This document shows positions 12,124 to 64,000 of a DNA stretch of 64,000 nt, one piece after another. A program made the position numbers and the translations under genes. Within the stretch, counting starts at the first letter, position 1; each line of letters begins with the position of its first letter. The notes beneath the pieces were generated by a model. That model saw nothing but the letters and a program-made list of their open reading frames with translations, was not told the DNA's origin and did no database searches. This DNA comes from SAR324 cluster bacterium (GTDB lineage Bacteria; SAR324; NAC60-12), in assembly GCA_028281495.1 (NCBI GenBank), contig JANQJU010000001.1, forward strand, positions 62,001 to 126,000, given 5' to 3'.

Positions 12124-12159
12124 TGCAACCTTTCATACCATTTCAAAGAAGAGGAAATT

Positions 12160-13491: not shown

Positions 13492-13505
13492 TTCACCTCC
13501 TCCTT

Positions 13506-13540: not shown

Positions 13541-13565
13541 TCATCTTCAAAGATAAGGGAAAACC

Positions 13566-15723: not shown

Positions 15724-15739
15724 CCAAAGGAGGAATGTT

Positions 15740-16828: not shown

Positions 16829-16829
16829 C

Positions 16830-17849: not shown

Positions 17850-17860
17850 ATCACAACTAA

Positions 17861-17898
17861 GTGGCTCACACGGAGCGATATGTGGCTGACACAGAGCG
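17861..17898 (+). repeat. Imperfect 21-bp-spaced duplication at the dhaL start
   Basis: GTGGCTCACACGGAGCG (17861-17877) and GTGGCTGACACAGAGCG (17882-17898) are near-identical copies 21 bp apart. They straddle the ATG of the stand-alone DhaL gene at 17880. In that reading frame the first copy would encode WLTRSD, the second WLTQSA. It looks like an in-frame duplication of the first codons that left the Shine-Dalgarno (CGGAG) and start codon between the copies. Confidence 0.55.
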
Positions 17899-18488: not shown

Positions 18489-18864
18489 TGTGAGTTTAGT
18501 GATTGTCTCTCACTCCCTGAAAATCGCAGAAGGCATTCATGAACTGCTGCATCGCATGGTGGGAGACCGAGTCAAAGTGGGAGTATGTGGAGGAGATAAA
18601 GAAACCGACTTCCGCACCACACCCGATATGGTCATGGCCACGATTGAGCAAGTTTGGTCCGAGGCCGGGGTGCTTGTGTTGGTCGATTTAGGGGGGGCTG
18701 AATTGAATAGTGAAACCGCTATCGAAATGATGCCCGCTTCCAAGCAATCCAAGCTGGTCTTATGTAATGCACCGATTGTGGAAGGAGCCATCGTTGCAGC
18801 CAACGAGGCTGCTGGAGGAGCGGACCTCCTTTCAGTCAAGCAGACGGCTGAAGGGAGTCATTGA
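18481..18864 (+). CDS. dhaM: PTS-dependent dihydroxyacetone kinase phosphotransferase DhaM (EIIA only)
   Basis: Stand-alone EIIA-Dha/DhaM domain (127 aa). The phospho-accepting His is His11 in VIVSHSLKIAEGI, and the fold is marked by VLVLVDLGGAELNSE. It takes phosphate from HPr and regenerates ATP on DhaL. In E. coli DhaM is a three-domain fusion with HPr-like and EI-like parts. Here the three parts are separate neighbouring genes (DhaM, HPr, EI), as in many other bacteria. It overlaps dhaL and lies 22 bp before the HPr gene. Confidence 0.9.
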   Translation: MSNVSLVIVSHSLKIAEGIHELLHRMVGDRVKVGVCGGDKETDFRTTPDMVMATIEQVWSEAGVLVLVDLGGAELNSETAIEMMPASKQSKLVLCNAPIVEGAIVAANEAAGGADLLSVKQTAEGSH

Positions 18865-18886
18865 TACCAGCCATGCAGGGAAACAA

Positions 18887-19183
18887 ATGGAAGAATCAAT
18901 CGAACAACAAGTCGTTACCATTGGTTCGGCTCATGGGCTTCACGGCAGACCCGCTCTCATGCTTTCACGATTGGCGATGCGCTATCAATCGGTGGTCGAG
19001 ATTGCCTTGTCAGACACCGGACCTTGGGTAAACGTTCGCAGCGTTTACATGGTGCTTCGCATGAAAATCAAAAAAGGGACTTCTGTGTGCCTCCGAGCGA
19101 GTGGTCCCGATTCTTCCGAGGCTTTAGAAAATGCAGCGGAACTAATTCAAGAGACCGCCAACCATAATTTGGAACATGGCTAG
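18887..19183 (+). CDS. Phosphocarrier HPr of the dihydroxyacetone phosphorelay
   Basis: HPr-family carrier (98 aa). The active-site His19 sits in SAHGLHGRPALML (family: GLHARPA). The second helix RSVYMVLRMKIKKG keeps a Ser at the position of the regulatory Ser46 region. The ATG at 18887 gives a protein of normal HPr length with a short lead; a longer upstream frame lies inside dhaM. It overlaps the EI gene by eight bases. No sugar-specific membrane EIIC is encoded here, so this HPr probably serves the dihydroxyacetone kinase only, unless other PTS components exist elsewhere in the genome. Confidence 0.9.
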   Translation: MEESIEQQVVTIGSAHGLHGRPALMLSRLAMRYQSVVEIALSDTGPWVNVRSVYMVLRMKIKKGTSVCLRASGPDSSEALENAAELIQETANHNLEHG

Positions 19184-24133: not shown

Positions 24134-24147
24134 GTCTTATATAAGAA
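24134..24147. promoter_or_regulatory. GntR-type palindrome copy near a chemoreceptor
   Basis: GTCTTATATAAGAA matches 13 of 14 positions of the perfect palindrome GTCTTATATAAGAC that precedes the sulfosugar kinase gene (60471-60484). It is about 240 bp upstream of the chemoreceptor at 22329-23897 and overlaps the end of a decayed SRPBCC reading frame. It could bind the same GntR/UTRA regulator. A chance match in AT-rich DNA cannot be excluded. Confidence 0.4.
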
Positions 24148-48974: not shown

Positions 48975-50432
48975 CTAGGATATTCCACCGACCATCATAT
49001 ATTTGATTTCGAGGTAATCCTCGACACCATATTTGGAACCTTCGCGTCCCAAACCAGATTCTTTCACACCACCAAAAGGGGCGATTTCAGTCGAAACGAG
49101 GCCTTCATTGGCTCCAACAAGACCATATTCCAAGGCTTCTCCTACTCGGAAGACACGCCCGACATCACGCGTGTAAAAATAGGCCGCCAAACCGAATTCG
49201 GTATCGTTTGCCATTTGGATCGCTTCTTCTTCGGTCTCAAATGGGATCACAGCGGCAACCGGCCCAAAAGTTTCTTCGCGATTGATCAACATGTCAGTTC
49301 GAACGTCACGCAACACCGTTGGTTGAAAGAACGTCCCTCCCAAGGCATGGCGTTTTCCTCCGCAAAGCACTTTGGCCCCTTGCCCCACGGCATCATTGAC
49401 ATGACGTTCCACTTTTTCAACGGCAGCTTCGTCGATCAAAGGCCCCTGGGAAACTCCTTCTTGAAAGCCATCTCCCACTTTTAGGGTTTGTGTGGCTTCG
49501 GTGAGTTTTTCGACAAAGGCATCATAAATTCCGGTTTGTACGTAGATGCGATTGGCACAGACACAAGTTTGGCCAGTGTTGCGGTATTTAGCAATCATGG
49601 CTCCTTGAACAGCAGCATCCAGGTCGGCATCATCGAACACGATGAATGGCGCATTACCTCCCAGTTCCATTGAAACTTTTTTAACGGTAGCCGCTGATTG
49701 TTTAAGCAACAATTTCCCCACAGGAGTGGATCCGGTGAACGTAATTTTCCGAACCAAAGGGTTCGAGGTGAGTTCGTTACCAATGGGTACGGGATCTTTG
49801 CCAGTCACCACATTAAACACACCCGCCGGAATACCCGCCTGTTGAGCCAAATACGCAGTTGCTAGGGCGGAAAGCGGTGTATGTTCTGCGGGTTTAGAAA
49901 CAAAAGTGCAACCTACTGCCAAAGCAGGGGCAACTTTTCGGGCGATCATGGCAATCGGGAAATTCCAAGGCGTGACCGATGCCGCCACACCCACCGGCTC
50001 TTTCATGACAAATAATCGAGCATCGGGTTTATGTGTAGGGATGGTATCGCCATAAACACGCTTGCCTTCTTCGGCAAACCAATCAATGAAACTGGCCGCA
50101 TATTTCACTTCGCCTGCCGCTTCCGCCAAAGGTTTGCCTTGCTCATAGGTCATCAGAGCGGCTAAGTCCTCTATGTTTTCCAATAGCAAGTCATGCCATT
50201 TTCTTAACAAAGCTCCTCGTTCCTTTGCTGTTTTGGCACGCCATGCAGGGAAAGCGGCATAGGCTGCTTCAATCGCACGCCGAGTCTCGGTCGCTCCCAT
50301 ATCGGGAACTTTCGCTATTACCTCACCATTGGATGGGTTAGTCACCTCAAATGTAGCGTTGGAATCGGCGTTTATCCATTCGCCGTTGATCAAGGTTTGC
50401 TCTCGGAGTAAATTCGTGTCTTTCAATTTCAT
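48975..50432 (-). CDS. Aldehyde dehydrogenase, probable sulfolactaldehyde dehydrogenase
   Basis: NAD(P)-dependent aldehyde dehydrogenase of the GabD/SlaB type (485 aa). The start at 50432 has AAGAGG upstream; a longer frame lacks one. The active-site Cys is in NTGQTCVCANR, the general-base Glu in MELGGNAPFIVFDD, and the cofactor motif in FTGSTPVGKLL. By sequence alone it could be a succinate-semialdehyde dehydrogenase. Relatives act as sulfolactaldehyde dehydrogenases in other sulfoglycolytic bacteria, and here it lies beside sulfolactate-processing genes. The proposed step is oxidation of sulfolactaldehyde from the aldolase to (S)-sulfolactate. It has its own 240-bp upstream region with a large palindrome, so it may be a separate transcription unit. 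Confidence 0.85.
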   Translation of the reverse strand: MKLKDTNLLREQTLINGEWINADSNATFEVTNPSNGEVIAKVPDMGATETRRAIEAAYAAFPAWRAKTAKERGALLRKWHDLLLENIEDLAALMTYEQGKPLAEAAGEVKYAASFIDWFAEEGKRVYGDTIPTHKPDARLFVMKEPVGVAASVTPWNFPIAMIARKVAPALAVGCTFVSKPAEHTPLSALATAYLAQQAGIPAGVFNVVTGKDPVPIGNELTSNPLVRKITFTGSTPVGKLLLKQSAATVKKVSMELGGNAPFIVFDDADLDAAVQGAMIAKYRNTGQTCVCANRIYVQTGIYDAFVEKLTEATQTLKVGDGFQEGVSQGPLIDEAAVEKVERHVNDAVGQGAKVLCGGKRHALGGTFFQPTVLRDVRTDMLINREETFGPVAAVIPFETEEEAIQMANDTEFGLAAYFYTRDVGRVFRVGEALEYGLVGANEGLVSTEIAPFGGVKESGLGREGSKYGVEDYLEIKYMMVGGIS

Positions 50433-50603
50433 AGTGTGACCTCTTAGTTTCGAGCCGCACCCAAACCGTTCCCAGAGCATCTCAAATTTGGACGATGGTC
50501 ACTTCTAATTCCGTACTCAATTGTTTGGTATCACGGAACTCGGAGTGGCCACCTTTCCAAATTTGTCTGAAGTGCTTCATGTAGGGAGTGTATGGCTGTA
50601 GCT

Positions 50604-50632
50604 ACTAAATTGTTTTAGTAAAACGATTTAGT
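50604..50632. promoter_or_regulatory. 29-bp palindrome upstream of the aldehyde dehydrogenase
   Basis: ACTAAATTGTTTTA (50604-50617) faces TAAAACGATTTAGT (50619-50632) around a central G, with a single mismatched pair. It lies about 170 bp before the aldehyde dehydrogenase start and just after the ComC stop. The core TTTAGTAAA also occurs in the dihydroxyacetone-module operators (for example 11935-11943). It is a good operator candidate for separate control of the dehydrogenase. Confidence 0.6.
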
Positions 50633-50674
50633 CAATCTCAAAAATATTAAATTTTGATGAAATGCCCTTGGAAT

Positions 50675-51682
50675 TCAGTGTTCTCCAAGTATAACGAGCT
50701 TTTCGTACACAGATTGAGACAATTTGATTCCGCTTTGACGTGCTCGGTTTCTTAAGCCTAACCGTCTTGTTCCAGGGATTCGGGTGCCGGGTTGCTCCAA
50801 AATAGTAGCAATCAATGTTTCGAGACGGGGGCCAAACCCGTTTTCGGATAAGGGCCCAGGATGGATCGCCAGCAACAGTTGTCCAATATGAGGTGGCTCG
50901 CCTTCAGCATCGAAAAAGGAGCTTGCCTCAAACCCAAAGTGAGAGGCTGTCAGCGCTGCAGAAAGCACCTCCACCATCATGACCAAGGCCGCTCCTTTGG
51001 CATCTCCCATCGGAAGCAGAGTCCCTGACATGGCCGCTTGGGAGTCGGTCGTCGGGTTGCCTTCAGCATCCAACGCCCAGCCTTCAGGGATGGACTCGTT
51101 GTTTTGGGAGGCCACTTTAATTTTCCCACGTGCCACTTTAGAAAGCGACATGTCCACCACTAAAGGAGCGTGATGGGGCCGCGGGGCCGCAAAAGCGATA
51201 GGATTGGTGCCAAATACCCCGGTATGTCCACCCCACGGAGCAATGCCTTTGGGGCTATTGCTGAACATGAGGCCGATCATGCCGTGTTTGGCTAACTTTT
51301 CCACATGGTATCCCATGGCCCCACAATGATGCGAATGGGCAATCGCCGCCACAGCGACTCCTGTTTGAGGCGTGAGGGAAATCAAGCGTTCGATGGCAGC
51401 TTCCAACGCTGGATATGCAAAACCACTCTTCGCGTCTACCCGAACCGCGGCGGTTCCCACCTCTGTGATTTGGGGCTGGGCATGGCCATCGACCTTGCCA
51501 CTTTTCGCTTGGGCTGCGTAAGCGGCAACTCGCGATACTCCGTGTCCCTTCTGTCCTTCGGCCTCAGCAGCGGCTAAGGCAGCCGCAACCGAATGCGCAT
51601 TGGTATCGCTCGTATTGTGGGCGACCAAGGCTTTGGCAATCAACTGGGACAACTCATCCAAAGTTACGATTCTATCTTCCAT
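50675..51682 (-). CDS. comC: (R)-sulfolactate dehydrogenase, ComC/Ldh2 family
   Basis: NAD(P)-dependent dehydrogenase of the malate/L-lactate dehydrogenase-2 family (335 aa), which is unrelated to Rossmann-type dehydrogenases. Conserved blocks: GHGVSRVAAYA, AIAHSHHCGAMGYHVEKLA, FSNSPKGIAPWGGHTGVFGT and LVVDMSLSKVARGKI. ComC members interconvert (R)-sulfolactate and sulfopyruvate. Paired with SlcC it turns (S)-sulfolactate into the (R)-form that SuyAB needs. The ATG at 51682 is chosen because GGAGG lies seven bases upstream; the ATG at 51688 overlaps the slcC stop and leaves no spacer. A malate or ureidoglycolate dehydrogenase is the alternative by sequence, but the neighbours decide. Confidence 0.85.
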   Translation of the reverse strand: MEDRIVTLDELSQLIAKALVAHNTSDTNAHSVAAALAAAEAEGQKGHGVSRVAAYAAQAKSGKVDGHAQPQITEVGTAAVRVDAKSGFAYPALEAAIERLISLTPQTGVAVAAIAHSHHCGAMGYHVEKLAKHGMIGLMFSNSPKGIAPWGGHTGVFGTNPIAFAAPRPHHAPLVVDMSLSKVARGKIKVASQNNESIPEGWALDAEGNPTTDSQAAMSGTLLPMGDAKGAALVMMVEVLSAALTASHFGFEASSFFDAEGEPPHIGQLLLAIHPGPLSENGFGPRLETLIATILEQPGTRIPGTRRLGLRNRARQSGIKLSQSVYEKLVILGEH

Positions 51683-51684
51683 AT

Positions 51685-52611
51685 TCATCCCTCCAATGCT
51701 TTGCGTACGTTTTCGGCGGTCACGGCGCTGACCCGGACATTGGATTCTTTGGTGACTCCTGCAATATGAGGAGTCAGAATCAGATTGGGCAAGTCCCGGA
51801 ACCGTTCTGCAATGGGAGCCACTAAAGGCTCGGACTCAAACACATCCAATGCGGCCCCTCCAAGGTGTTGGGTTTGAAGACCTTCGATAAGTGCTGCCTC
51901 ATCGACGACGCCTCCTCGTGCGGCATTGATGACCATGGCGCCATTTTTCATCTTCGCAATCGCCGAGGCATCGATCAAATGACGTGTTTCAGGAGTAAGT
52001 GGCACATGAAGGCTGATCACATCCGACTGCATTAAAAGATCGTCTAAACTTAAATTTTCAACGTTATGCCAAGCAGGATGATCCTTAGGCAAATAGGGAT
52101 CATAAGCCAATATGTCCATCCCCAAGGCAGCAGCTCGTTGTGCTGTTTCGCGGGCAATTGCCCCGAATCCCACCAAGCCTAATTTTTTTCCACTCGTTTC
52201 ATGCCCCATCAATGTTTGGCGTGGCCATTGGCCTTCGACCATCGCAATAGTCGAATGGTACGCTCCTCGAAATAGCATCATGATCGCAGCAATCACATAC
52301 TCGGCAACCGCCAGGTCATTGGCTCCAGTAGCTGGAAAAACAGCAATATTGCGAGATTTGCATTGTTCCAAATCGATATTATCCAATCCCACTCCCAACC
52401 GTCCGACTGCTTTGAGTTGCAGAGCGTTGTCTAATAGGCCGTCACGCACCTGAGTGCGATTTCGCACAATCAAACCTTCGGCATCGTGAAGTTGTGCTTG
52501 CAGCTCTTCAGGATTGTCGACCAATTTAGGATCATAAATCACATTGAAATCAGGAGATAATCCATCCACGGCTTTTTGGTCCATGAATTCTGTAATGACT
52601 ATTTTTTTCAT
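51685..52611 (-). CDS. slcC: (S)-sulfolactate dehydrogenase, SlcC type (D-2-hydroxyacid dehydrogenase family)
   Basis: SerA-like 2-hydroxyacid dehydrogenase (308 aa). The nucleotide-binding motif is LGLVGFGAIARETAQRAA. The catalytic Arg is in NAARGGVVDEAAL, and His is in LTPHIAGVTKESN. No ACT domain, so it is not a full-length SerA. In sulfolactate-degrading bacteria SlcC oxidises (S)-sulfolactate to sulfopyruvate, and ComC, encoded next, reduces this to the (R)-isomer. The two genes overlap or abut (GGAGGGATGA), indicating coupling. A glycerate or phosphoglycerate dehydrogenase would be possible without this context. Confidence 0.87.
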   Translation of the reverse strand: MKKIVITEFMDQKAVDGLSPDFNVIYDPKLVDNPEELQAQLHDAEGLIVRNRTQVRDGLLDNALQLKAVGRLGVGLDNIDLEQCKSRNIAVFPATGANDLAVAEYVIAAIMMLFRGAYHSTIAMVEGQWPRQTLMGHETSGKKLGLVGFGAIARETAQRAAALGMDILAYDPYLPKDHPAWHNVENLSLDDLLMQSDVISLHVPLTPETRHLIDASAIAKMKNGAMVINAARGGVVDEAALIEGLQTQHLGGAALDVFESEPLVAPIAERFRDLPNLILTPHIAGVTKESNVRVSAVTAENVRKALEG

Positions 52612-52652
52612 AAGTGGTTTCGCTGGTAGGGGTGAAAATGAAGATGAGGGAG

Positions 52653-53747
52653 TTATAGAAATGCTACAATCAAACCCAGACTGAACACAGAAAGCACAAC
52701 CGCCGAGGCCAAGCCGATATACAGCGGCATCAGTCCCGTTTTCCAGACACTTTTGAGATCGGTACCAAGCCCCACCCCAGCCATCGCCATGGTAATGAGC
52801 AAGGAAGCCACCGACGTGAGGGCTTCACCTGGATTGACTTGTACTGGGCCGGCTTCCCACAAAAAGTTTTCTTGAAGATGCAACGTGAGATCCGGCAAAA
52901 AATAGAAAGTGTTTGCCAAGGCCATCACCAGAAATCCCAAAATGAAAGGCGGCAACAGTGTCTTGATCTGCATTTTTTTGCTCACGTAGACCTGATTGTT
53001 GGCTCGTTGATGTCGGGCATACCAAACGGTGGCTAAGACCACGAGCGGAGCCAGCATCAACACCCGCACCAACTTTACGATAGTACTGACCTCACCAGCC
53101 TCAGGGCCATAAGCAAAGCCTGCGGCCAATACCTGCGGAGTTGCATGCACAGCAACACCGGCCCATACACCGAAGTCGGCTTGGCTCATGTCCAACAGAG
53201 CGCCGAATATGGGAAATGCAAAAATTGCAAGCATTCCAAACAACGTCACAACAGCCACAGAAAGAGCGGTGTCGGTATCTTCGGCTTCGATCACTGGAGC
53301 CATGATCACAATTGCTGTCCCCCCGCATATCGCTGTCCCGACCCCAATAAGGAATCCCAGTTTCCGTCGCACTCCTGCTTTAGTACAAAGCCAATACGTT
53401 AGTCCCAAAGCGACAACAACACAGATTGAACTGATCACTAAAGATTGAGCCGACACCCGGAGCACGTGAAAAAAATTGAGTTTTGCCCCCAACAAGATGA
53501 TTCCAAAAGGCAGCAATCCTTTGACGGCGTACTTCACCCCTGCGTTGAACCAAGAGGGCAACTTAAAAACATTCCGTAGGAACATCCCCAGTACGATTGC
53601 CAGCAGAATGGAATCAATCGGGTGTGGTTTGGGAGCATCAATCGTGAAGGGGGGAAATGGCAGTGTGTGGAGTTGATACGCCGCCACCGTGATGATCAAG
53701 GTCAGCAAAACACCAGGGATTCGACTTTTTTGCCAGTCCGTACTCAT
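52653..53747 (-). CDS. cuyZ: Putative sulfite exporter, CuyZ/YeiH (UPF0324) family
   Basis: Polytopic membrane protein (364 aa) with about ten helices. Family hallmarks: ILLAIVLGMFLRNVFKLP, LLPFGIILLGAKLNFFHV, VGTAICGGTAIVIMAPVIEA, and GVAVHATPQVLAAGFAYGPE. UPF0324 proteins encoded beside cysteate- or sulfolactate-desulfonating enzymes (CuyZ) are thought to export the sulfite released. Here the gene lies directly beside slcC-comC and shares a regulated island with suyAB, which supports the same role. Direct transport evidence for the family is limited. The protein looks complete. Confidence 0.85.
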   Translation of the reverse strand: MSTDWQKSRIPGVLLTLIITVAAYQLHTLPFPPFTIDAPKPHPIDSILLAIVLGMFLRNVFKLPSWFNAGVKYAVKGLLPFGIILLGAKLNFFHVLRVSAQSLVISSICVVVALGLTYWLCTKAGVRRKLGFLIGVGTAICGGTAIVIMAPVIEAEDTDTALSVAVVTLFGMLAIFAFPIFGALLDMSQADFGVWAGVAVHATPQVLAAGFAYGPEAGEVSTIVKLVRVLMLAPLVVLATVWYARHQRANNQVYVSKKMQIKTLLPPFILGFLVMALANTFYFLPDLTLHLQENFLWEAGPVQVNPGEALTSVASLLITMAMAGVGLGTDLKSVWKTGLMPLYIGLASAVVLSVFSLGLIVAFL

Positions 53748-53787
53748 AGGTCATTGCGTGAAGAGAAATGGGGAAAGGATCGTGACT

Positions 53788-54789
53788 TCAAATCACAAAG
53801 TTCAATGCTTCGTCTGAAGCAAATTCGATTTCTAAACTGAGATATCGTTCCCAAGAATCACAGAGCACGGTGACCACCCGTTTATTGGGACCGAGACGTT
53901 TGGCAACTTCCAACGCAGCCCACATTGCTGCTCCGGCTGACATTCCTGCTGAAATACCCTCTTCCCGAGCTAGACGTCGAGCAATGCGATACGCCTCGTC
54001 GTCCCCGCAGCAGAGCACTTCATCCACGATATCCAGATTGAGCACATCAGGAACAAACCCGGCTCCAATGCCTTGAATCAGGTGAACTCCTCGTTTGCCC
54101 CCGTTGATCACGGCGGATGAGATCGGTTCCACTCCAAAAATCGAAAGCCCTGGAATTTCTCGCTTCAGCACCTCGCCAACACCGGTAATCGTTCCACCCG
54201 TGCCGATCCCTGCCACAAAGGCGTCGATCTTTCCTTCCATTGTGGCAAGAATTTCGAGAGCTGTGGTTTCACGATGCACTTGCGCATTCGCTTCGTTGAT
54301 GAACTGGTTGGGCATGAAACAATTCGGATTGCTACGGACAATCTCTTCGGCTTTTTCCACGGCCCCTTGCATTGTTTTACGAGCCGGGGTGAGCACCACC
54401 TGTGCTCCAAAATTGCTCATAAGAGCTTGGCGTTCTTTGCTCATGTCGTCCGGCATAGTGAGAATCAATCGATAGCCCTTGACCGCACAAACAATAGCCA
54501 ATCCGATACCGGTATTTCCGCTCGTAGGTTCGACCACGGTGTAACCGGGTTGCAACTGTCCCTCGCGTTCAGCGGCTTCAATCATAGCCAAGCACAATCG
54601 GTCTTTGATGCTGAATCCCGGATTCAGTGATTCCATTTTGAGAAAAATATCCGCCCGATTTTCCGTTGGAGTGAGTCGATTGAGACGAACCATCGGGGTC
54701 CGTCCAATCAATTCAAGAACCGATTCGGCCAAGGCGGGGCGCTGAATAGGTACATATTTTTTGGATTCAGAATTTGACGAATCAGACAT
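53788..54789 (-). CDS. Cysteine synthase family protein (CysK-like)
   Basis: PLP fold-type II enzyme (333 aa). The Schiff-base Lys is in LNPGFSIKDRL, the substrate loop is EPTSGNTGIGLA, the phosphate-binding glycines are in GIGTGGTITGVGE, and the C-terminal PLP-N1 contact Ser lies in CDSWERYLS. All catalytic elements are present. An O-acetylserine sulfhydrylase would be routine, but its place between the glycosidase and the sulfite exporter genes is notable. It may help trap sulfur released in the pathway, after reduction to sulfide or as S-sulfocysteine/cysteate. NPG-F replaces the usual NP-x-S-x-KDR spacing residue. Confidence 0.85.
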   Translation of the reverse strand: MSDSSNSESKKYVPIQRPALAESVLELIGRTPMVRLNRLTPTENRADIFLKMESLNPGFSIKDRLCLAMIEAAEREGQLQPGYTVVEPTSGNTGIGLAIVCAVKGYRLILTMPDDMSKERQALMSNFGAQVVLTPARKTMQGAVEKAEEIVRSNPNCFMPNQFINEANAQVHRETTALEILATMEGKIDAFVAGIGTGGTITGVGEVLKREIPGLSIFGVEPISSAVINGGKRGVHLIQGIGAGFVPDVLNLDIVDEVLCCGDDEAYRIARRLAREEGISAGMSAGAAMWAALEVAKRLGPNKRVVTVLCDSWERYLSLEIEFASDEALNFVI

Positions 54790-54838
54790 TACTTTTGTGT
54801 TGGAATGGTGTGTCGGATTTTAAAAGTGAATGAAGGCT

Positions 54839-57049: not shown

Positions 57050-58392
57050 CAGGTTATCTCAATCACAGGAATGTCCAGCATTTGAGCAAGCCGCCTCAAC
57101 GCCGGACGATGCTCACCATATGCCAAGGAATAATGGTGTTCTAATCCTTCTCTCATCACCATATCCAAGACATCAGACGCAGGCTGGTCGAATCGAATCA
57201 CACCAGACGTTCCGGTGAAACTCATGGGAGCACGAACCATTTCACCACTTCCAATCACCAGCCTTGGCTCGTTCTTGGCTTGGCTCAGCCGAGCCACCGT
57301 CACACGCCCCGGCTTCAGCGTGAACTCATAGAGCAATGGTTTCTTACGATTGGTATGCACTGTCGCACGTTTGGGACTTTCCGGATCGGCCATTGAAATT
57401 GGGGCCAAACCGCAGTGCCAAAACACCCCCGTATCTTCCTCGGTATTGATGTCGACGAGATCTGCCATAAATGCAGGCTCACTGCCCAACCATTGGAGAA
57501 TCAAAGTAGACATTGTTCCGTAAACATCGGCTTCACACCCACAAGGAGTCTGTTCTTGATTCATCATGGCCATCGGCCCGCATGCCGCACAGCCATACTC
57601 GGTAAAAAACTCGGGCCAACAGCGCACCGCCAATCCATTGTAGCCTTGTTCGTTGGCGATACGACGCAATGTGGAATACACCTTCAAGCTTTTGCGTAAG
57701 GGTTCTTGTTCCATCTCAGCAAGGTTGTCGACTTGCTGGTCCACTCGGGCATACACTTGATCTGTCTCGGCTTCAGGCACCGTAGCTGCCTGCTTTAACA
57801 TGTCAGAAAGATCCAACTGCTCCACGGAAACGCCACAAAGTTTCATGACCGTGTCTTGATCGTAACTACAGGTATCGAATCCATCCGGATGTTTCCCAAT
57901 TACCCCCAATTTGGTTTGTTTCAATCGATTGACGATGATTCCTGCTTGCGCGATGGAAAGAATTTCAGTTCCCGCTTCCGGATTGTCCGAAGCTTTGTGA
58001 ATGTAATTGTACTCCTTCCCGGCTTTGGCTAAAGCGTGTCCGGCGAGATTGAGTCCACAGAGTGAATTCAGGCGCAGTCGTCCACCAACGCGGGGCTCAG
58101 GAAAGGACCAGATGGCAATCGGTGCATCAATGGCTTGGGCCAAGGCAACGGTCATGGTGGCATCGGTAAACGTCACTTGGAGAATCAATAACAGATCCAA
58201 GTTTTGTTGCTTTAAGGGGTCGAGCATGCCTTGGACAGCATCAGCATCGAACAACAAGTCTTTGGAACCGATCAACGTGGCATCCAACGCTTCCAATTGA
58301 GACCAGGCTTGGCCGGCCATTTCTTCTGCATAAGGTACGTCAAATGTGGGGCGAGCCAGAGTGATCACGCCAATGGTGGGTTTTGCGCTCAT
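57049..58392 (-). CDS. L-fucose/L-arabinose isomerase-like protein, probable sulfoquinovose isomerase (SqvD-like)
   Basis: A 447-residue member of the fucose/arabinose isomerase superfamily (COG2407-like), metal-dependent aldose-ketose isomerases. Visible landmarks: VGVITLARPTFDVPYAEEMA-type start, GLNLAGHALAKAGKEYNYIH, GLAVRCWPEFFTEYGCAACG, CGCEADVYGTMSTLILQWLG and HCGLAPISM. Proteins of this family (SqvD) isomerise sulfoquinovose to sulfofructose in transaldolase-type sulfoglycolysis, as I recall. E. coli uses the unrelated YihS instead. Followed here by a YihV-type kinase and a LacD-type aldolase on the same operon, it would supply sulfofructose. A neutral 6-deoxysugar isomerase is the alternative. 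Confidence 0.75.
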   Translation of the reverse strand: MSAKPTIGVITLARPTFDVPYAEEMAGQAWSQLEALDATLIGSKDLLFDADAVQGMLDPLKQQNLDLLLILQVTFTDATMTVALAQAIDAPIAIWSFPEPRVGGRLRLNSLCGLNLAGHALAKAGKEYNYIHKASDNPEAGTEILSIAQAGIIVNRLKQTKLGVIGKHPDGFDTCSYDQDTVMKLCGVSVEQLDLSDMLKQAATVPEAETDQVYARVDQQVDNLAEMEQEPLRKSLKVYSTLRRIANEQGYNGLAVRCWPEFFTEYGCAACGPMAMMNQEQTPCGCEADVYGTMSTLILQWLGSEPAFMADLVDINTEEDTGVFWHCGLAPISMADPESPKRATVHTNRKKPLLYEFTLKPGRVTVARLSQAKNEPRLVIGSGEMVRAPMSFTGTSGVIRFDQPASDVLDMVMREGLEHHYSLAYGEHRPALRRLAQMLDIPVIEIT

Positions 58393-58404
58393 AACAACCT
58401 CTCT

Positions 58405-59436
58405 CTACTGATAGTTTTTGGGAAAATCCGGTCCAGCGCCTTGAATGCGGACCCCCTCAGCAAAAGCACGATGTTTTTGCCAAGGCGTGGCCAATTCATC
58501 GGTCAACTGACTGATTTTTTGAACGTAAGCCACGCCTTCGTCACGGAGTTCAGCTTCCATTTGTTCTAAATTTGGAAAATGCTGAGCCGCTTTCCACCAA
58601 ATCGCGCGTCCGGCCAAATACCCGCTGGCTCCCGCTCGATACGCATAGGTTAAAATGCGCTCAAAAGTTTCCATGTTGGCCCCGGCGCTGAGCATCACCC
58701 AGGGCACTGGGCTAGCCGCTCCCAATTGATGAAACCACTGCTGGCATTCTTCGGCTTCGGGGGAATCTAAGGCGGGAACTTGCCCCCCTGCTAAGGGACT
58801 TTCTAGTTTGAAGATATCCACACCAAACTTGGGATCCGCAAACGCTTTCACCGAGTCAATCACCAATTCAGGACGCTTGGCTTTGTGCTCCACATAATCT
58901 TTCGTCTGATGTGCATCTCCAGGAAGCGGATACACCAACAATTCGAACAAAAAACAGATATCGTGTGCTTTGCAGGCATCTCCAAGCGTTTGGACCCATC
59001 GCTGCTGATGTTCACAAACCTCAGGGTCCGCATCCGGACGATACCAAGCCAACGCTTTCACTCCATCGGCTCCTAATTTTTTAATTTTGGCCACACTCCA
59101 ATCGGCAATTTCCGCAGATCGTCGGCCCCGCTCATCTTCGGCAAAGGCATGCTCTTCTAAAGTGATCAAGAGGCCTTGATTGGGACGGACATGATCGATG
59201 GCCTGAGGATAGGCCCAAATTGGATCCAGCAACATGGCAGTGGATTCATTGGCCAAGGACTTGGTCAATACGGTTTTGACAGCAGCCACATCCTCGTAGC
59301 TGGCATCCGGTACGTTCTTTTTTTCTTTAATAAGATTCATGATAGGAGGACGTTGATCCACCGCTGTCATTTTAAACAGTCCATTGGCATCGGCCAACCG
59401 GCGGAGACCCCATAGTTTTCCAGCTGATAGTTCCAT
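58405..59436 (-). CDS. LacD/YihT-type aldolase, probable sulfofructose-1-phosphate aldolase
   Basis: Class I (Schiff-base) aldolase of the LacD/YihT family (343 aa; YihT is 292). It starts LFKMTAVDQRPP, like the AVDQR of YihT. The Schiff-base Lys210 is in VDIFKLESPLAGG (YihT: DLYKVEMPL), and WVMLSAGANMETF plus AGASGYLAGRAIW close the phosphate site as in YihT (WVILSSGV, AGASGFLAGRAVW). The expected reaction is cleavage of 6-deoxy-6-sulfofructose-1-phosphate to DHAP and sulfolactaldehyde. The extra 50 residues are mainly in the first third and at the C-terminus. It lies between the isomerase (12 bp) and the kinase (91 bp). Confidence 0.85.
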   Translation of the reverse strand: MELSAGKLWGLRRLADANGLFKMTAVDQRPPIMNLIKEKKNVPDASYEDVAAVKTVLTKSLANESTAMLLDPIWAYPQAIDHVRPNQGLLITLEEHAFAEDERGRRSAEIADWSVAKIKKLGADGVKALAWYRPDADPEVCEHQQRWVQTLGDACKAHDICFLFELLVYPLPGDAHQTKDYVEHKAKRPELVIDSVKAFADPKFGVDIFKLESPLAGGQVPALDSPEAEECQQWFHQLGAASPVPWVMLSAGANMETFERILTYAYRAGASGYLAGRAIWWKAAQHFPNLEQMEAELRDEGVAYVQKISQLTDELATPWQKHRAFAEGVRIQGAGPDFPKNYQ

Positions 59437-59527
59437 AATCGTTTATCGTTGGTTGGAGTGGTTTAATAATAGTTAAGGAAGGATCGTTCGCTTTGTTGAA
59501 TATGCTGCTTGATAAAAATACAAATTA

Positions 59528-60427
59528 TTAAAACTGCTGTTGGAGCAATGCTTCGACCGCATCGCGTTCAGGAATTCCTGAGCGCCCCCCGGGCTGTGTG
59601 CATTTTAAAGCTGCGGTGGCATTGGAAAAACGAATGGCTTCTCGGATCGATTGCCCTTCGGCTAAAGCGAATGCCAATGCTCCATGAAACACGTCCCCCG
59701 CTCCCAAGGTGTCGACGACATCCACTGAAAACGCGGGAACATGTTCCACTACCTCCTCTTCCAGCCAATAGGTCCCCTCGCCCCCTTGCGTCACACACAA
59801 CCAAGCGTCGCTGGTTTGGCGTGCTTGCTTCAGTGCGAGGTTCACATTCGATGTATTAGTAAATCGTTTTAGTGCCTGCTCAGAAAAAGCGACATGACTG
59901 GCTTGTTGCACCAATTGTTGCACACTGTTATCGGGAGTCAGGTCGGCATCCAGAATGGCTGGGATCTGGTATGATCGAGCAGCCTTCAGGCCCACGATCG
60001 AACCTTGAGGCCATCGAGAATCCACGAGAACGGCATCTTTGGTCGCCAATTCTTCTAAAGGCAACCACGACGGATCGGCATCCAATTTGGGATCGGAACG
60101 ATTGACAATCAAGCGTTCTCCCTGCTGGTCAACCAAGACCGAGGAGATCGAAGAGTGCCCCTGTTCCACACGACGGACATGACGAACATTCACACCGTAG
60201 CCTTCCAACTCTGAAGTGATGCGATGGCCGACCTCATCGGCTCCCACACGTCCCCAAAATTCGACTTCTCCCCCCAGTTTAGCAATCGTCACAGCCGCGG
60301 TTGCGGCGGGACCGCCACCCACTTCTAAATAATTGTGGGCAAAGTGTTTTCCAGGCTGGAACGGCAGTTCCTCCATCGAGAAAATCTGATCTAAAACGGC
60401 AATGCCAATGCAAACAATCGAAGCCAT
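59528..60427 (-). CDS. yihV: Sulfofructose kinase, YihV type (PfkB family)
   Basis: Ribokinase/PfkB-family kinase (299 aa) with strong overall similarity to E. coli YihV: NYLEVGGGPAATAAV, the VGADE loop, and VDVVDTLGAGDVFHGALAFAL with the catalytic Asp, then AALKCTQPGGRSGIP. Lys27, Asn109 and Arg138, which I recall as forming the sulfonate pocket of YihV, fall at exactly the same residue numbers here. This is the best single marker that the substrate is a sulfosugar. It phosphorylates sulfofructose at C1. It is the first gene after the GntR regulator, with the palindromic operator at 60471-60484 in the gap. Confidence 0.92.
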   Translation of the reverse strand: MASIVCIGIAVLDQIFSMEELPFQPGKHFAHNYLEVGGGPAATAAVTIAKLGGEVEFWGRVGADEVGHRITSELEGYGVNVRHVRRVEQGHSSISSVLVDQQGERLIVNRSDPKLDADPSWLPLEELATKDAVLVDSRWPQGSIVGLKAARSYQIPAILDADLTPDNSVQQLVQQASHVAFSEQALKRFTNTSNVNLALKQARQTSDAWLCVTQGGEGTYWLEEEVVEHVPAFSVDVVDTLGAGDVFHGALAFALAEGQSIREAIRFSNATAALKCTQPGGRSGIPERDAVEALLQQQF

Positions 60428-60470
60428 AATACTCTACATGATATTAATTGCCTGTTGTTAATTATAAGAT

Positions 60471-60484
60471 GTCTTATATAAGAC
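60471..60484. promoter_or_regulatory. Perfect GntR-type operator before the sulfosugar kinase
   Basis: GTCTTATATAAGAC is a perfect 14-bp palindrome lying 44 bp upstream of the kinase start and about 90 bp downstream of the GntR stop. Its form (GTxTTATATAAxAC) fits sites of the HutC/UTRA subgroup of GntR regulators. A 13/14 copy precedes suyA (61534-61547) and another lies near a chemoreceptor (24134-24147). Confidence 0.75.
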
Positions 60485-60575
60485 TCATCCAAAAAACAAG
60501 CGATTTGACGTGCTCTTTTTTCGATAGATTGTTTCTCGGGTTTGATCTTGAAAAGTTCTGTACTGAGGACCTGAC

Positions 60576-61304
60576 TTATAACAACTCAGACAGATAATGA
60601 TGATTCTCCGTATTCACGTAGCTAATGCGTCTTTCAACGGGCTGTCCATTGATGGCAACTGCAATTCGGTCGATTTCCAGGACGGGCGATTGGGGAGGCA
60701 TTTGGAGCAATTCGGCATCATCTTCGCTCAAGCTTACTGCACGAACACGCTCTACAGCCTTCATAACTTTCACACCGTATTCGGATTCATATAAAGAATA
60801 TAAGGTGTTGGGCAGCTCTCCTTCTTTTCCAATATCTCCAAACAATTTTAAGGCCAGAGAAATGGTTTCTACGATGACAGGTTGTTGGTGCAGATATCGA
60901 ACCCGTTTGATCCGTACCACCTTATCCCCTTTGTCTAAATTGAGGTGTTTGATTTCTTGGGAATTCGCAGCCACCTTTTGCACCCGGATCACCTTGCTTT
61001 CTGGGATTTCGCGCTTACCGTCTTTGCTCACGATATAAAAGAAGTGAAATAGAGACCGATCAGGAGAATGTTGTGAAACAAATGTTCCGCGCCCCTGTCG
61101 ACGGGTGAGAATATTGTCGGCGGTCATCTCATCCAAAGCCTTGCGCACGGTGCCTTGGCTCACCCCGAACTCTTCAGCCAACTGTTGTTCACTAGGCAGA
61201 ACCATTCCCGGAGCCCACACACCGTCAATCAATCGTTGCAGCAACAGATCTTTTACTTGACGATACAGAGGTAAATAATTAGGCGTCACGAGTTGTTTTT
61301 TCAT
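60576..61304 (-). CDS. GntR/HutC-family regulator with UTRA domain, probable sulfosugar sensor
   Basis: Transcription factor (242 aa from 61304; 249 aa if translation starts at 61325, where GGAAGGA also gives a plausible site). The winged helix covers about 1-75: PLYRQVKDLLLQRLI, LPSEQQLAEEFGVSQGTVRK, RRQGRGTFVS. The UTRA effector domain (about 95-240) has VVRIKRVRYLHQQPVIVETI and EIDRIAVAINGQPVERRISY. It sits between the two transcription units of the sulfonate island, with palindromic candidate sites in front of each, so it is most likely their repressor, relieved by a pathway intermediate such as sulfoquinovose, sulfofructose or sulfolactate. DeoR-type CsqR does this job in E. coli, so the regulator type differs. 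Confidence 0.9.
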   Translation of the reverse strand: MKKQLVTPNYLPLYRQVKDLLLQRLIDGVWAPGMVLPSEQQLAEEFGVSQGTVRKALDEMTADNILTRRQGRGTFVSQHSPDRSLFHFFYIVSKDGKREIPESKVIRVQKVAANSQEIKHLNLDKGDKVVRIKRVRYLHQQPVIVETISLALKLFGDIGKEGELPNTLYSLYESEYGVKVMKAVERVRAVSLSEDDAELLQMPPQSPVLEIDRIAVAINGQPVERRISYVNTENHHYLSELL

Positions 61305-61618
61305 AGTTGTCGTTCCTCCCAACATAAAATAGTCCTTCCTATAAGGGGATTGCTTCGATTTTCAGCATAATCTTGCTCGAAAGCCTATCCGGATTTCATA
61401 GTTAAGGCCTGTCTCACAATAAACCAGAAACACCAATATTTCATGGAGTTCGAGTCGTGAGCAACACCCCATACACTAATCTGCCATCAATAGAAAAAAG
61501 TGGGAAGGCAAATTCTTATAAAAAAATACTTGTGTCATATATAAGACATAAGATACAGTTGCCCATCGTTCGCTAAAAATCAATCTGAAACCTATCTATT
61601 CCGAGAGGAGCAAAAGCC
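61305..61618. promoter_or_regulatory. Divergent control region between the GntR gene and suyA, with operator
   Basis: GTCATATATAAGAC at 61534-61547 differs by one base from the perfect palindrome at 60471-60484 and lies 71 bp before the suyA start. An overlapping promoter is likely, but I could not choose unambiguous -35/-10 boxes. The other 240 bp of this gap show no gene or strong hairpin. A GAGAGGAG ribosome site precedes suyA. Confidence 0.65.
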
Positions 61619-61906
61619 ATGAGTGAAACACATTTTTTAGTGCATGACAGCTCGGATTCTGTCGGCGTGGTGACTGTAGAATCAGCCAAGGCCGGGATGG
61701 ACCTGACTGGATGGGTGATGGAAAATGACGCCACCATCACCATCAAAGCCAATCACGATATTCCTTTGGGACACAAGATCGCTTTGCACGACATTGCCAC
61801 CGGTGGCACCATTTTGAAGTATGGGCATGACATCGGCAAAGTGGTGAAAGACATCACAACTGGAGATCACGTACACGTACACAACGTTAAAACAAAAAGG
61901 TGGTAA
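61619..61906 (+). CDS. suyA: (2R)-sulfolactate sulfo-lyase small subunit
   Basis: Small subunit (95 aa) of sulfolactate sulfo-lyase, which splits (R)-sulfolactate into pyruvate and sulfite. It corresponds to the SAF domain at the front of altronate dehydratase (UxaA). Visible are [40 protein letters not shown] and [17 protein letters not shown], with the conserved His residues of the family. Here it is a separate gene followed at once by the large subunit, as in known suyAB operons. In sugar-acid dehydratases the two parts are usually fused, which supports the Suy assignment. Confidence 0.88.
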
Positions 61907-61908
61907 GT

Positions 61909-63075
61909 ATGAGCAAAAAGACTTTCTTAGGATACCGGCGTGAAAACGGACGAGTGGGTATCCGTAACCATGTAGTGATATTGCCATTGGACGACATTTC
62001 CAACGCGGCATGTGAAGCAGTGGCCAACAACATCAAAGGCACACTGGGCATTCCTCATTCTTATGGGAGGCTACAATTTGGCGAGGATTTGGAACTTCAT
62101 TTCCGAACACTCATCGGCACGGGTTGCAATCCGAACGTCGCTGCCGTTGTGGTCATCGGAATCGAACCAGGATGGACCGGCCGAGTGGTGGAAGGCATTG
62201 CCAAAACCGGCAAACCGGTTGCTGGATTTTCAATTGAACAAAATGGAGACATCCAAACAATTGCAGATGCTTCTCGCAAAGCAAAAGAGTTTTCTCAATG
62301 GGCTAGCGAACTTCAACGAGAAGAGTGTGATGTGAGCGAGTTATGGGTGTCTGTAAAATGCGGCGAATCGGACACCACTTCCGGTTTAGCATCCAATCCC
62401 ACCGTAGGCAATTTCATTGACAAGATGAATGAATGGGGAGCCACCACTTGTTTTGGTGAAACTTCGGAAATCACCGGAGCTGAAGAAGTGGTTGTAGAAC
62501 GAGCCATCAATCCAGAGATTGGCAAAAAATTCCATAAAACCTGGAGCGACTACAATGACTTCATTTTAGATTGCAAGACTAACGATTTGTCGGAGTCGCA
62601 ACCCACTAAAGGCAACATCGAAGGCGGCCTCACCACCATCGAAGAAAAAGCATTTGGTAACGTCCAGAAGATCGGCAAGAAAACCCAATATGTCGATGTC
62701 TTGGCACCAGCGGAAGAACCAGCAGCAGGTCCTGGTTTGTATTTCATGGATACCTCGTCCGCAGCCGCTGAATGTGTGACTTTGCAAGCGGCGGGTGGCT
62801 TTGTAGTGCATCTGTTTCCCACCGGCCAAGGTAACATCATTGGCAATCCAATCGAACCTGTTGTGAAATTGACCGCCAATCCTCGGACCGTTCGAACGAT
62901 GGGTGAACATGTGGATTTAGATGTTTCAGGGATCTTACGTCGAGAGATGAACCTTGACGAAGCCGGGGATGCCTTGATCGATATTACCTTGCGCACTTGT
63001 AGCGGCCGTCTGACAGCTGCTGAAGCTTTAGGTCACCGAGAATTTGTATTGACGAAATTACATCGTAGTGCGTAA
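61909..63075 (+). CDS. suyB: (2R)-sulfolactate sulfo-lyase large subunit
   Basis: Catalytic large subunit (388 aa) of the UxaA/GarD superfamily, whose members use iron. It begins [20 protein letters not shown], the family signature, followed by [40 protein letters not shown] and [20 protein letters not shown]. The C-terminal part has [19 protein letters not shown]. The Cys residues in GTGCNP and VKCGESD are plausible metal ligands. The start at 61909, three bases after the suyA stop, has GGTGG upstream. Together with SuyA it completes the removal of sulfite that sulfoglycolysis alone leaves undone. Altronate dehydratase is the alternative, disfavoured by context. Confidence 0.88.
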
Positions 63076-63107
63076 ACAGACAGTCAGAGGCTTATTAAAA
63101 CGTTTTA

Positions 63108-63143
63108 CAAATCAAGATCGGTAGAGGCACCGATCTTGATTTG
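63108..63143. terminator. 15-bp perfect hairpin between suyB and the TRAP genes
   Basis: CAAATCAAGATCGGT (63108-63122) pairs over all 15 bases with ACCGATCTTGATTTG (63129-63143), with a 6-nt loop. No T-run follows on the plus strand. It may protect the suyAB mRNA end, attenuate reading into the TRAP genes, or act as a partial terminator. Confidence 0.65.
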
Positions 63144-63185
63144 AAAACAATAAATGCACAGGACATCTTGCTATGAGGGGGGCAA

Positions 63186-63722
63186 ATGCATGCTTTCATC
63201 AAGCTGCTAGACAAGTTCAACGGAGGCGTTGAAGTTGGCTGCAAGTACACTGGGGCCTTATTGGTTGCCGTGATGACCGTGTTGGTGATCATCCAGGTTT
63301 TCTTTCGTTATGTGCTTAACGATTCGTTCACCTGGACGGAAGAACTCGCGCGATTCATGATGGTTTGGACCACATTCATTTCGGCTCCCGTCGCCTACCG
63401 ATTGGGATCTAACGTTTCGTTAGACATCATCTATAACCGGTTCACAGGCCGGGCACACCACTTCTTAACTATTCTGCTCACCATCGCGGCTTTCTGCAGC
63501 TTGGGATTGCTGTTTTATCTCTCGCTCACGCTGGTTGGTCGGGGTATGAAAAGCACCGCTACCTCGCTACCCATCAAAATGGCTTTCATTTACGTCTCGC
63601 TACCGATTGGACTCGGACTGACCATGTTGGTCAATTTGCAGGTGATGTTGGAAGCAATAGTTCATTTCATCAAAGGGGATAAAGCGTTGGAGGAGCATCA
63701 CTACGAATTATCGGGGGAGTGA
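63186..63722 (+). CDS. TRAP transporter small permease (DctQ type)
   Basis: Four-helix membrane subunit (178 aa) of a tripartite ATP-independent periplasmic transporter. Features are the helix LLVAVMTVLVIIQVFFRYVL, the family motif FTWTEELARFMMVWTTFISA, and SNVSLDIIYNRF. Such systems import carboxylates and sulfonates with Na+. Lying directly after suyAB, it probably brings in sulfolactate, another C3 sulfonate or the sulfosugar itself. The start at 63186 follows GGGGGG. The DctP binding protein is not in the window and may lie beyond its right end. Confidence 0.9.
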   Translation: MHAFIKLLDKFNGGVEVGCKYTGALLVAVMTVLVIIQVFFRYVLNDSFTWTEELARFMMVWTTFISAPVAYRLGSNVSLDIIYNRFTGRAHHFLTILLTIAAFCSLGLLFYLSLTLVGRGMKSTATSLPIKMAFIYVSLPIGLGLTMLVNLQVMLEAIVHFIKGDKALEEHHYELSGE

Positions 63723-63754
63723 GGCATGTTCTTTTTTGAAGAGGAGGCACAACC

Positions 63755-64000
63755 ATGACACTTCTATTTTTCTGGCTATTTTTAGGATTCATGGCGATCG
63801 GGTTGCCGATTGCATTTGCCCTGATCTTGGCCCCAGGGATTAGCCTGTTGGTGGAAAACCCAGCCCGTATATCTTTGTTGATCCGGCGTTTGTATAACGG
63901 AGTGGATAGCTTCCCGCTGATGGCTGTTCCGTTTTTTATCTTGGCAGGCGAGGTCATGAACGTGGGAGGCATTACCACGAGCCTTGTAAATTTCAGCAAG
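63755..64000 (+). CDS. TRAP transporter large permease (DctM type), cut by the window end
   Basis: The first 82 codons of a DctM-type subunit: LFFWLFLGFMAIGLPIAFAL, then LIRRLYNGVDSFPLMAVPFF and ILAGEVMNVGGIT, the diagnostic N-terminal signature of the family (normally about 425 aa). AGGAGG lies seven bases before the ATG. It follows the DctQ gene by 32 bp and is evidently translated from the same mRNA. The remaining five-sixths lies outside the window. Confidence 0.92.
   Translation, partial: MTLLFFWLFLGFMAIGLPIAFALILAPGISLLVENPARISLLIRRLYNGVDSFPLMAVPFFILAGEVMNVGGITTSLVNFSK

Follow-up and report, generated by a model that had tools for sequence, protein, structure and literature searches.

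Can one bacterium split the abundant plant sulfosugar sulfoquinovose in the manner of the Embden-Meyerhof-Parnas (EMP) pathway and also desulfonate the resulting C3 sulfonate? The question was raised by an island of genes at positions 48975–64000 of a 64,000-nucleotide stretch of DNA from a SAR324 cluster bacterium (hereafter the window; bases 62001–126000 of contig 85 in a draft genome of 9.73 Mb). We consider it probable that the island encodes a complete sulfoquinovose pathway in one SAR324-cluster bacterium, in which the front end is EMP-like, the back end desulfonates sulfolactate, and both are likely co-induced by one GntR regulator. All genes named in an initial annotation of the island were found as intact open reading frames (ORFs), and their families were confirmed against NCBIfam and Pfam. 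The two divergent units that it described were borne out by the gene order, which is GntR, kinase, aldolase, isomerase, GH31, CysK, UPF0324, SlcC-like, ComC-like, and aldehyde dehydrogenase on the minus strand and SuyA, SuyB, and the small, large, and binding proteins of a tripartite ATP-independent periplasmic (TRAP) transporter on the plus strand. The TRAP large permease and binding protein extend beyond the window end, up to window coordinate 66325. The genes for SuyA/SuyB, ComC/SlcC, and GH31/isomerase overlap, which fits operons.

In the proposed pathway, the TRAP system would import the sulfosugar, and the GH31 glycosidase would free sulfoquinovose from its glycoside. The SqvD-type isomerase would then form sulfofructose, the YihV-type kinase would convert it to sulfofructose-1-phosphate, and the LacD-clade aldolase would cleave this to dihydroxyacetone phosphate (DHAP) and (S)-sulfolactaldehyde. 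Oxidation of the aldehyde to (S)-sulfolactate is predicted for the GabD/SlaB-like enzyme, and SlcC followed by ComC would invert the product via sulfopyruvate to (R)-sulfolactate, from which SuyAB would release sulfite and pyruvate. UPF0324 would export the sulfite, part of which could be oxidised by a SorA-like sulfite dehydrogenase encoded elsewhere. All six sugar carbons would thus be kept.

The host was placed in the SAR324 cluster because of its RpoB identities. Sixteen genomes were queried, of which three had no usable RpoB, and the Exilibacterium frame (a 27-residue match) was left out. The host RpoB was 80.6% identical to that of SAR324 cluster bacterium nPCRbin7, 71.8% to that of SAR324 lautmerah10 (912-residue alignment), 63.4% to those of two further SAR324 records, and 63.0% to that of the genome carrying locus L011 (see below), and the seven compared Desulfobacterota and proteobacterial genomes gave 51–56%.

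A recurring cassette and its enzymes

Related loci (L numbers) were collected by a scan of named genomes with an alignment of 23 isomerases, and the best 80 of the 254 relatives were examined. Genes were counted by tblastn at fixed bit thresholds that we set ourselves; ORF calling retrieved the isomerase in 64 of the 80 loci (long antisense ORFs). Because in 44 of the 80 loci the contig ended within 9.5 kb of the isomerase on one or both sides, the counts are lower bounds on presence. The kinase was found in 44 of the 80 loci, the kinase together with LacD in 33, and SuyB in 24. The initial annotation had proposed a neighbourhood search for a yihV-type kinase beside suyAB in other genomes, and such loci do exist: kinase, LacD, and SuyB all lay within about 10 kb of the isomerase in 17 loci (hereafter full cassettes), and five more had kinase and SuyB. 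The full cassettes came from SAR324 (L009 and L011), Alphaproteobacteria (among them Marinicaulis, Parvularcula, and Hyphomicrobiales), and Gammaproteobacteria (among them Exilibacterium, Nevskiaceae, and Steroidobacteraceae). SlcC and ComC accompanied SuyB in 13 of them, and an aldehyde dehydrogenase homologue (57–61% identity) lay directly before the kinase gene in 4. Two kinds of locus were not counted at these thresholds, namely L051, whose contig stops within SuyB (77%, 270 bits), and five loci from Chloroflexi, where SuyB scored 224–232 bits. The joint occurrence of the cassette genes is more than chance.

The best match of the window kinase in the Protein Data Bank (PDB) was the sulfofructose kinase YihV (7ag6, 293.1 bits), against 90.2 bits for E. 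coli ribokinase, and the kinase was 47.8% identical to YihV. The residues K27, N109, and R138 (YihV numbering), which we take to form the sulfonate site of YihV, are all kept in the window kinase and occur in 41, 33, and 40 of 41 cassette kinases, respectively, and RbsK has T, I, and E at these positions. By its PDB match and these residues, the window kinase belongs with the YihV-type sulfofructose kinases. The isomerase gene is present in a single copy in the host genome. Its product had no PDB match by sequence, and its AlphaFold model (mean predicted local distance difference test score, pLDDT, 92) showed the L-arabinose/L-fucose isomerase fold of an aldose-ketose isomerase.

The aldolase had been annotated as LacD/YihT-type, of which the first half stood. 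Its best PDB match was 8tnf (316.4 bits), its Pfam family was DeoC/LacD and not PF01116 (the SqiA family), and its best family-model match was to tagatose-bisphosphate aldolases. A YihT assignment was excluded by scores of at most 72.9 bits against the YihT entries and by 26.6% identity to E. coli YihT, and the enzyme is thus of neither the YihT nor the SqiA type. The residues that presumably serve as the Schiff-base Lys and the catalytic Glu align with those of YihT, and the protein may act like YihT as a LacD-clade aldolase with a kept Schiff-base Lys. A literature search on the name of entry 8tnf, as a known sulfosugar aldolase, gave unrelated papers, and no GatZ/KbaZ-type tagatose aldolase subunit was matched in the host.

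In the back end, the aldehyde dehydrogenase scored 736.2 bits against the succinate-semialdehyde dehydrogenase family, to which known sulfolactaldehyde dehydrogenases also belong, and 794.4 bits against PRK11241 (cut-off 828). For RlGabD, the accessible text of PMC10599462 describes a WNF motif, Arg171 and Arg289 as proposed sulfonate-binding residues, and a Cys pair. By spacing, the window enzyme has WNF, both Arg residues, and CxC, a pattern equally compatible with a succinate-semialdehyde dehydrogenase. The large sulfo-lyase subunit shared 67.4% identity with its large UxaA-family counterpart from the hpsN-hpsO locus of Cupriavidus pinatubonensis; among 316 matching plasmid records, 13 lay at 60–80% identity, after which identity dropped from 64.8% to 39.6%. 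The island thus holds paired small and large UxaA-family subunits, the large one within the SuyB orthologue group. A Paracoccus plasmid locus of the same SuyB group has UPF0324 directly after suyAB and a sulfite oxidase gene a few genes on. UPF0324 relatives were found in 10 of the 80 loci, and the island protein is likely a sulfite exporter. Oxidation of sulfite to sulfate is also possible in the host, because it encodes one SorA-like molybdenum enzyme (246.2 bits, cut-off 600) with a twin-arginine translocation (Tat) signal.

Several of these results tell against a complete sulfoquinovose pathway. The sole NCBIfam match of the isomerase, the sulfoquinovose isomerase SftI, reached 330.3 bits, under its cut-off of 700, and the aldolase is far from YihT, as described above. 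No mutarotase was found among the island genes. The ComC-like protein scored 192.7 bits against the L-sulfolactate dehydrogenase model (cut-off 500), about what AllD-type models gave (192.8–196.8 bits); its predicted role draws on its context. Thirteen of the 17 full cassettes had no aldehyde dehydrogenase match in the stretch examined; as far as the accessible text of PMC12421959 goes, the published Paracoccus case likewise assigns no sulfolactaldehyde-oxidising enzyme. In the five loci with kinase, isomerase, and SuyAB noted above (L039, L050, L055, and L078 from Woeseia or other Woeseiaceae, and L014 from SAR324), LacD was not found in the stretch examined.

The glycosidase slot and the substrate

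For the GH31 glycosidase of the initial annotation, the family held up, both catalytic Asp residues were present, and a YihQ signature was missing. Its top score was with an alpha-xylosidase model (471.6 bits), against 225.1 bits with PRK10426, which we take to be YihQ, and its closest matches were alpha-xylosidase and alpha-glucosidase entries. GH31 genes were found near the isomerase in 28 of the 80 loci, and 26 of the 28 were aligned (L017 was left out, as was L056 for its length). The catalytic nucleophile and acid Asp were conserved in the window protein and in all 26. At YihQ positions Q288, R301, W304, and Y508, which we assume to be sulfonate-site residues, the window protein has a gap, K, F, and F, and the W304 and Y508 positions are F in 26/26 members. 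A YihQ-type assignment was ruled out by these residues. The motif D-[GS]-R-A-W was shared by the window GH31, all 26 aligned members, and L056; it was absent from YihQ, YicI, L017 (a divergent relative, 37%), L062, L064, and L074. Because the sulfoquinovose-binding residues of YihQ are absent, a further point against the pathway, action of this GH31 on sulfoquinovosides is predicted from context. Its sequence by itself leaves the substrate open, and the deciding hint comes from sister cassettes.

The NAD-dependent sulfoquinovosidases of family GH188 are described in the accessible text of PMC10755693, and homologues of them occupy the glycosidase slot of sister cassettes, whereas the window has GH31 there. 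A GH188-like gene (Gfo/Idh/MocA-type) was present in 20 of the 80 loci, at most 35 bp from the isomerase in 8 of them and up to 8.7 kb off in the others. The GH188-like proteins of L005, L009, and L011 matched the sulfoquinovosidase structures 8qc2/8qc3 with 211–352 bits, and where the hit list was complete, for one of the three, the solved protein that came next had 64.9 bits; the top PDB match of the compared proteins was 8zn9, named only "oxidoreductase, putative". With positions transferred from an alignment, the sulfonate site R166, L170, and K172 was present as R-x-[PA]-F-L-x-K in all 20 proteins, as was an EKCCH stretch; the residue roles are those given in the accessible parts of PMC10755693 and PMC11465081. 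GH31 and GH188 never co-occurred in the 80 loci. Among the 17 full cassettes, 5 had GH188, 11 had GH31, 1 had neither, and 0 had both. Fisher's test of the exclusion gave p = 6.6e-5 for the 80 loci and p = 3.6e-7 for the 44 kinase loci, values that ignore shared descent and contig-end cuts. The simplest reading of this mutual exclusion is that GH31 does the same job as GH188, which would make the window protein a predicted sulfoquinovosidase. Since GH188 homologues with the sulfonate-site residues lie in sister cassettes, the substrate points to sulfoquinovose.

The sugar half might instead act on another sulfohexose, most plausibly on sulfofucose via sulfotagatose, with sulfoquinovose at best a side substrate. 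LacD-type aldolases have low stereospecificity, and the GH31 is not YihQ-like. A Rhizobium plasmid cluster speaks for this alternative and against sulfoquinovose: it combines a PfkB kinase (41% to the window) and a LacD aldolase (46%) with short-chain dehydrogenase/reductase, enolase-type, and TSUP genes like those of published sulfofucose clusters. According to the accessible text of PMC12421959, the kinase/aldolase pair also occurs in a Paracoccus sulfofucose cluster, but there it showed no significant rise on sulfofucose, and the cluster lacks an isomerase gene. The isomerase family, by contrast, was found near relatives of YihQ, YihU, and CsqR. True YihQ lay near it in 2 of the 80 loci (isomerases 46–47%), namely L062, which also has a TRAP system and a transaldolase-like gene, and L064 (Propionivibrio soli), which also has YihU and CsqR relatives; a CsqR relative was present in 8 of the 80 loci. 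Otherwise similar cassettes, moreover, carry GH188 homologues that keep the residues for the sulfonate and the sugar hydroxyls. We therefore regard sulfofucose as an unlikely main substrate.

We judge it very improbable that a common sugar without a sulfonate group is the substrate of the sugar unit and that the unit stands beside suyAB by accident. The affinities of the GH31 to alpha-xylosidases and alpha-glucosidases and of the aldolase to tagatose-bisphosphate aldolases would fit such a unit, but set against them are the recurrent pairing of the unit with SuyB in SAR324 as well as in Alpha- and Gammaproteobacteria, a YihV-type kinase with the presumed sulfonate-site residues, and GH188 homologues in the same slot.

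Sulfoquinovose remains the substrate that we favour, and three further loci touch on the glycosidases. The host's lone close GH188 relative (L161:9059–10363, host contig 93) was 59–60% identical to the GH188 of L009 and L011, had F at position 170 instead of the usual Leu, and had no island-gene neighbours and no operator. In L065 (Anaerolineales, 9992–19238), a GH31 of this clade (53%) accompanies SuyAB in a cluster of the transaldolase type, and the glycosidase therefore seems common to two different sugar-cleaving routes. L103, on plasmid pZZM402 of Zymomonas mobilis ZM4 (128–11361), combines a related isomerase (47%) and a class II aldolase with genes for an aldose epimerase, transporters, a TonB receptor, and a succinate-semialdehyde-type dehydrogenase, and its GH188-like gene keeps the sulfonate-site residues; it is likely a sulfoquinovose cluster in a well-known ethanol producer.

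One candidate operator for two units

The two units could also be independent neighbours, suyAB and TRAP serving imported sulfolactate or 2,3-dihydroxypropane-1-sulfonate (DHPS) while the C3 sulfonate formed by the sugar unit is excreted. Small sulfonates are known cargoes of TRAP systems. Among 52 SAR324 genomes (G numbers), 18 had SuyB orthologues (>600 bits) and 7 had a full-length isomerase; suyAB without the isomerase is thus common in the phylum and exists independently. One contig carried both isomerase and SuyB in G000, G054, G061, and G062; the same holds for G055, where the isomerase is a fragment at the contig end. In G037, G047, and G063, the two were not on one contig. On the other side, two sulfolactate-acting enzymes, SlcC and ComC, are encoded within the window's sugar unit. 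A TRAP type was found near the isomerase in 30 of the 80 loci, 16 of them without any SuyB match, so a sugar cargo is favoured over sulfolactate; L062 is one of the 16, and six of the 16 were read for about 10 kb on both sides.

The upstream regions of both units also argue for joint control. The 12-base palindrome TCTTATATAAGA stands exact before the kinase gene and as a 1-mismatch copy before suyA. With up to one mismatch, it occurred 3 times in the 64-kb window (0.09 expected), the third time at 24135, outside the island. That copy (24135–24146) is the only other exact one in the 9.7-Mb draft genome and sits 238 bp before a chemotaxis-receptor-like gene (22329–23897, minus strand), which may be chance. 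A longer form, CTTATAT-N3-ATATAAG, was found around gntR in L009, L011, and L016. With the contig extensions L142 and L141 included, the two SAR324 loci L009 and L011 had it also before the kinase gene, dctP, and slcC-comC, and L016 had it before slcC. At up to three mismatches, the 17-base form was present in 6 of 9 intergenic regions, whereas 1000 shuffles gave 0.48 on average and 4 at most; at up to two, it was found in 0 of 11 SAR324 suyAB loci unlinked to the isomerase (11 of 14 such loci were examined, two of them from G063, whose isomerase is on another contig). One of the window's four 17-base matches falls inside gntR.

Other counts are unfavourable to a shared operator. The 17-base form, at up to three mismatches, was absent from 3 of the 9 regions, namely the window kinase promoter (12-base form only), the region between suyA and the major facilitator superfamily (MFS) gene in L009, and the GntR-isomerase region in L016. 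The palindrome was not found in the SAR324 loci L145, L146, and L156, whose GntR proteins are only 29–46% alike, and the regions used for counting it were also those on which it was defined. As an exact 12-mer it has two sites in the host genome, no more than a reversed control; because it is not enriched genome-wide, the operator argument rests on location, not on number. A GntR gene between both units recurs in related loci. From its placement, one GntR regulator likely switches on both halves together, with the palindrome as candidate operator. The same palindrome before both units and, in relatives, before slcC-comC and dctP is hard to match with independent neighbours, a reading that we hold to be quite unlikely.

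Table 1. Features of the island in window coordinates; functions are predictions
Feature	Position	Strand	Remark
Aldehyde dehydrogenase, GabD/SlaB type; predicted sulfolactaldehyde dehydrogenase	48975..50480	-	
ComC-like dehydrogenase (Ldh_2); predicted sulfopyruvate to (R)-sulfolactate	50675..51688	-	
SlcC-like D-2-hydroxyacid dehydrogenase; predicted (S)-sulfolactate to sulfopyruvate	51685..52611	-	2-Hacid_dh domains
UPF0324/YeiH membrane protein; predicted sulfite exporter	52653..53747	-	PF03601, 244.7 bits
CysK, cysteine-synthase-like pyridoxal phosphate enzyme	53788..54789	-	Island-specific extra; TIGR01139, 424.8 bits, above cut-off
GH31 glycosidase, non-YihQ clade; predicted sulfoquinovosidase	54839..57049	-	D[GS]RAW motif
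SqvD/SftI-type sulfoquinovose isomerase (predicted)	57049..58392	-	
Class I LacD-clade aldolase; predicted sulfofructose-1-phosphate aldolase	58405..59436	-	
YihV-type sulfofructose kinase (predicted)	59528..60427	-	
Exact palindrome, candidate GntR operator	60472..60483		45 bp before kinase start
GntR-family regulator	60576..61325	-	
Palindrome copy 2	61535..61546		1 mismatch; 73 bp before suyA
SuyA, (R)-sulfolactate sulfo-lyase small subunit (predicted)	61619..61906	+	Pairs with SuyB in related loci
SuyB, (R)-sulfolactate sulfo-lyase large subunit (predicted)	61900..63075	+	
TRAP transporter small permease	63186..63722	+	
TRAP large permease	63755..64000	+	Ends at window coordinate 65041
TRAP binding protein	65126..66325	+	

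The CysK-like enzyme, which the initial annotation had listed among the island genes, was found in 0 of the 80 related loci, and we dismissed it as a conserved part of the module. Its next best match in the host was 49% and lay on another contig. At a guess, the island CysK may scavenge sulfite or sulfide, or form cysteate.

Relation to known pathways and significance

The gene combination, which the initial annotation did not know as a described pathway, is not wholly new: similar sets were printed in 2024 for an actinobacterium and in 2025 for Paracoccus (sulfofucose with SuyAB). The cluster of Actinobacteria bacterium IMCC26103 (PMC11465081, 2024) resembles the island in its sulfolactaldehyde (SLA) dehydrogenase, a phosphoglycerate-dehydrogenase-like gene, both (2R)-sulfolactate sulfo-lyase subunits, a sulfofructose phosphate aldolase, a sulfofructose kinase, and a fucose isomerase. 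It differs in belonging to Actinobacteria, in its ABC transporters, in having GH188 for GH31, and in that no ComC is named. Its authors suggest that it may represent a new sulfoglycolytic pathway; they work out no route to pyruvate and sulfite and report no experiment. For the tandem pathway of Paracoccus wurundjeri (PMC12421959, 2025), the accessible text likewise proposes that SlcC, ComC, and SuyAB finish the C3 sulfonate in a sugar degrader, with release of sulfite. There the front end is of the Entner-Doudoroff type, the sugar is sulfofucose, transport is by ABC systems, and the SLA dehydrogenase is given as not known; growth and the front-end enzymes were shown experimentally. The same text calls the coexistence of sulfosugar splitting and biomineralisation in one cell unusual.

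Other known systems share parts of the route, as far as the accessible parts of PMC9594981 and PMC12890257 describe them. Sulfo-EMP (E. coli), sulfo-EMP2 (Firmicutes), and hybrids use the same sugar intermediates (PMC9594981), and hybrids of the kind that an SqvD-type isomerase forms together with sulfo-EMP enzymes have already been noted there. Sulfo-EMP and sulfo-EMP2 differ in ending with excreted DHPS or sulfolactate (PMC9594981, PMC12890257), and the island aldolase is of the LacD clade. For the extended sulfo-TAL pathway with SuyAB in Thermotogae and Chloroflexi, full carbon use is likewise predicted, but a transaldolase stands where the island has kinase and aldolase (PMC9594981); SuyAB extensions are given there only for sulfo-TAL clusters (PMC9594981, PMC12890257). 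The sulfo-ASMO/SMO and sulfo-SDO pathways also use six carbons in one cell and release sulfite, but in these an oxygenase cuts the C-S bond of the intact sugar, whereas the island is predicted to split the sugar first and without an oxygenase (PMC9594981, PMC12890257). Among the matches listed in searches of open-access titles and abstracts, none works out the island's route, and those listed for sulfoquinovose with Woeseia or SAR324 held no paper on it.

The core of the initial annotation, an EMP-type front end joined to oxidation, stereo-inversion, and SuyAB, is thus supported by the genes, the recurring cassette, GH188 in sister loci, and the common palindrome, with the details of GH31, aldolase, and CysK revised. 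A wider proposal has in our judgement about equal chances of being right or wrong. The island and its relatives would form a cross-phylum module, spread over SAR324, Alpha- and Gammaproteobacteria, through which a single cell mineralises sulfoquinovose within one GntR regulon. Its GH31 would be a second, independently evolved alpha-sulfoquinovosidase lineage, interchangeable with GH188, in which the inserted arginine of D-G-R-A-W binds the sulfonate instead of the YihQ residues.

Sulfoquinovose production is put at about 10 billion tons per year in the accessible text of PMC12890257. Organisms that split it are mostly described as handing the C3 sulfonate to other species (PMC9594981), and use of all its carbon in one cell is ascribed mainly to oxygenase routes (PMC9594981, PMC12890257), again as far as these sources are accessible. 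In the accessible part of a 2026 survey, SuyAB, SlcC, and ComC were screened in selected genomes linked to labelled amplicon sequence variants (ASVs), and their carriers were discussed as secondary degraders. One of the related loci, L030, belongs to the named strain Exilibacterium tricleocarpae R142 and holds the whole cassette minus UPF0324 and CysK in one stretch, so that the pathway idea is directly testable with this near-complete cassette. The module could escape surveys that are keyed to YihT-type or SqiA aldolases and to YihQ. If the pathway is as proposed, SAR324 and several proteobacterial groups would have primary degraders that both split the sugar and release sulfite, and the degradation chain would be shortened without an oxygenase.

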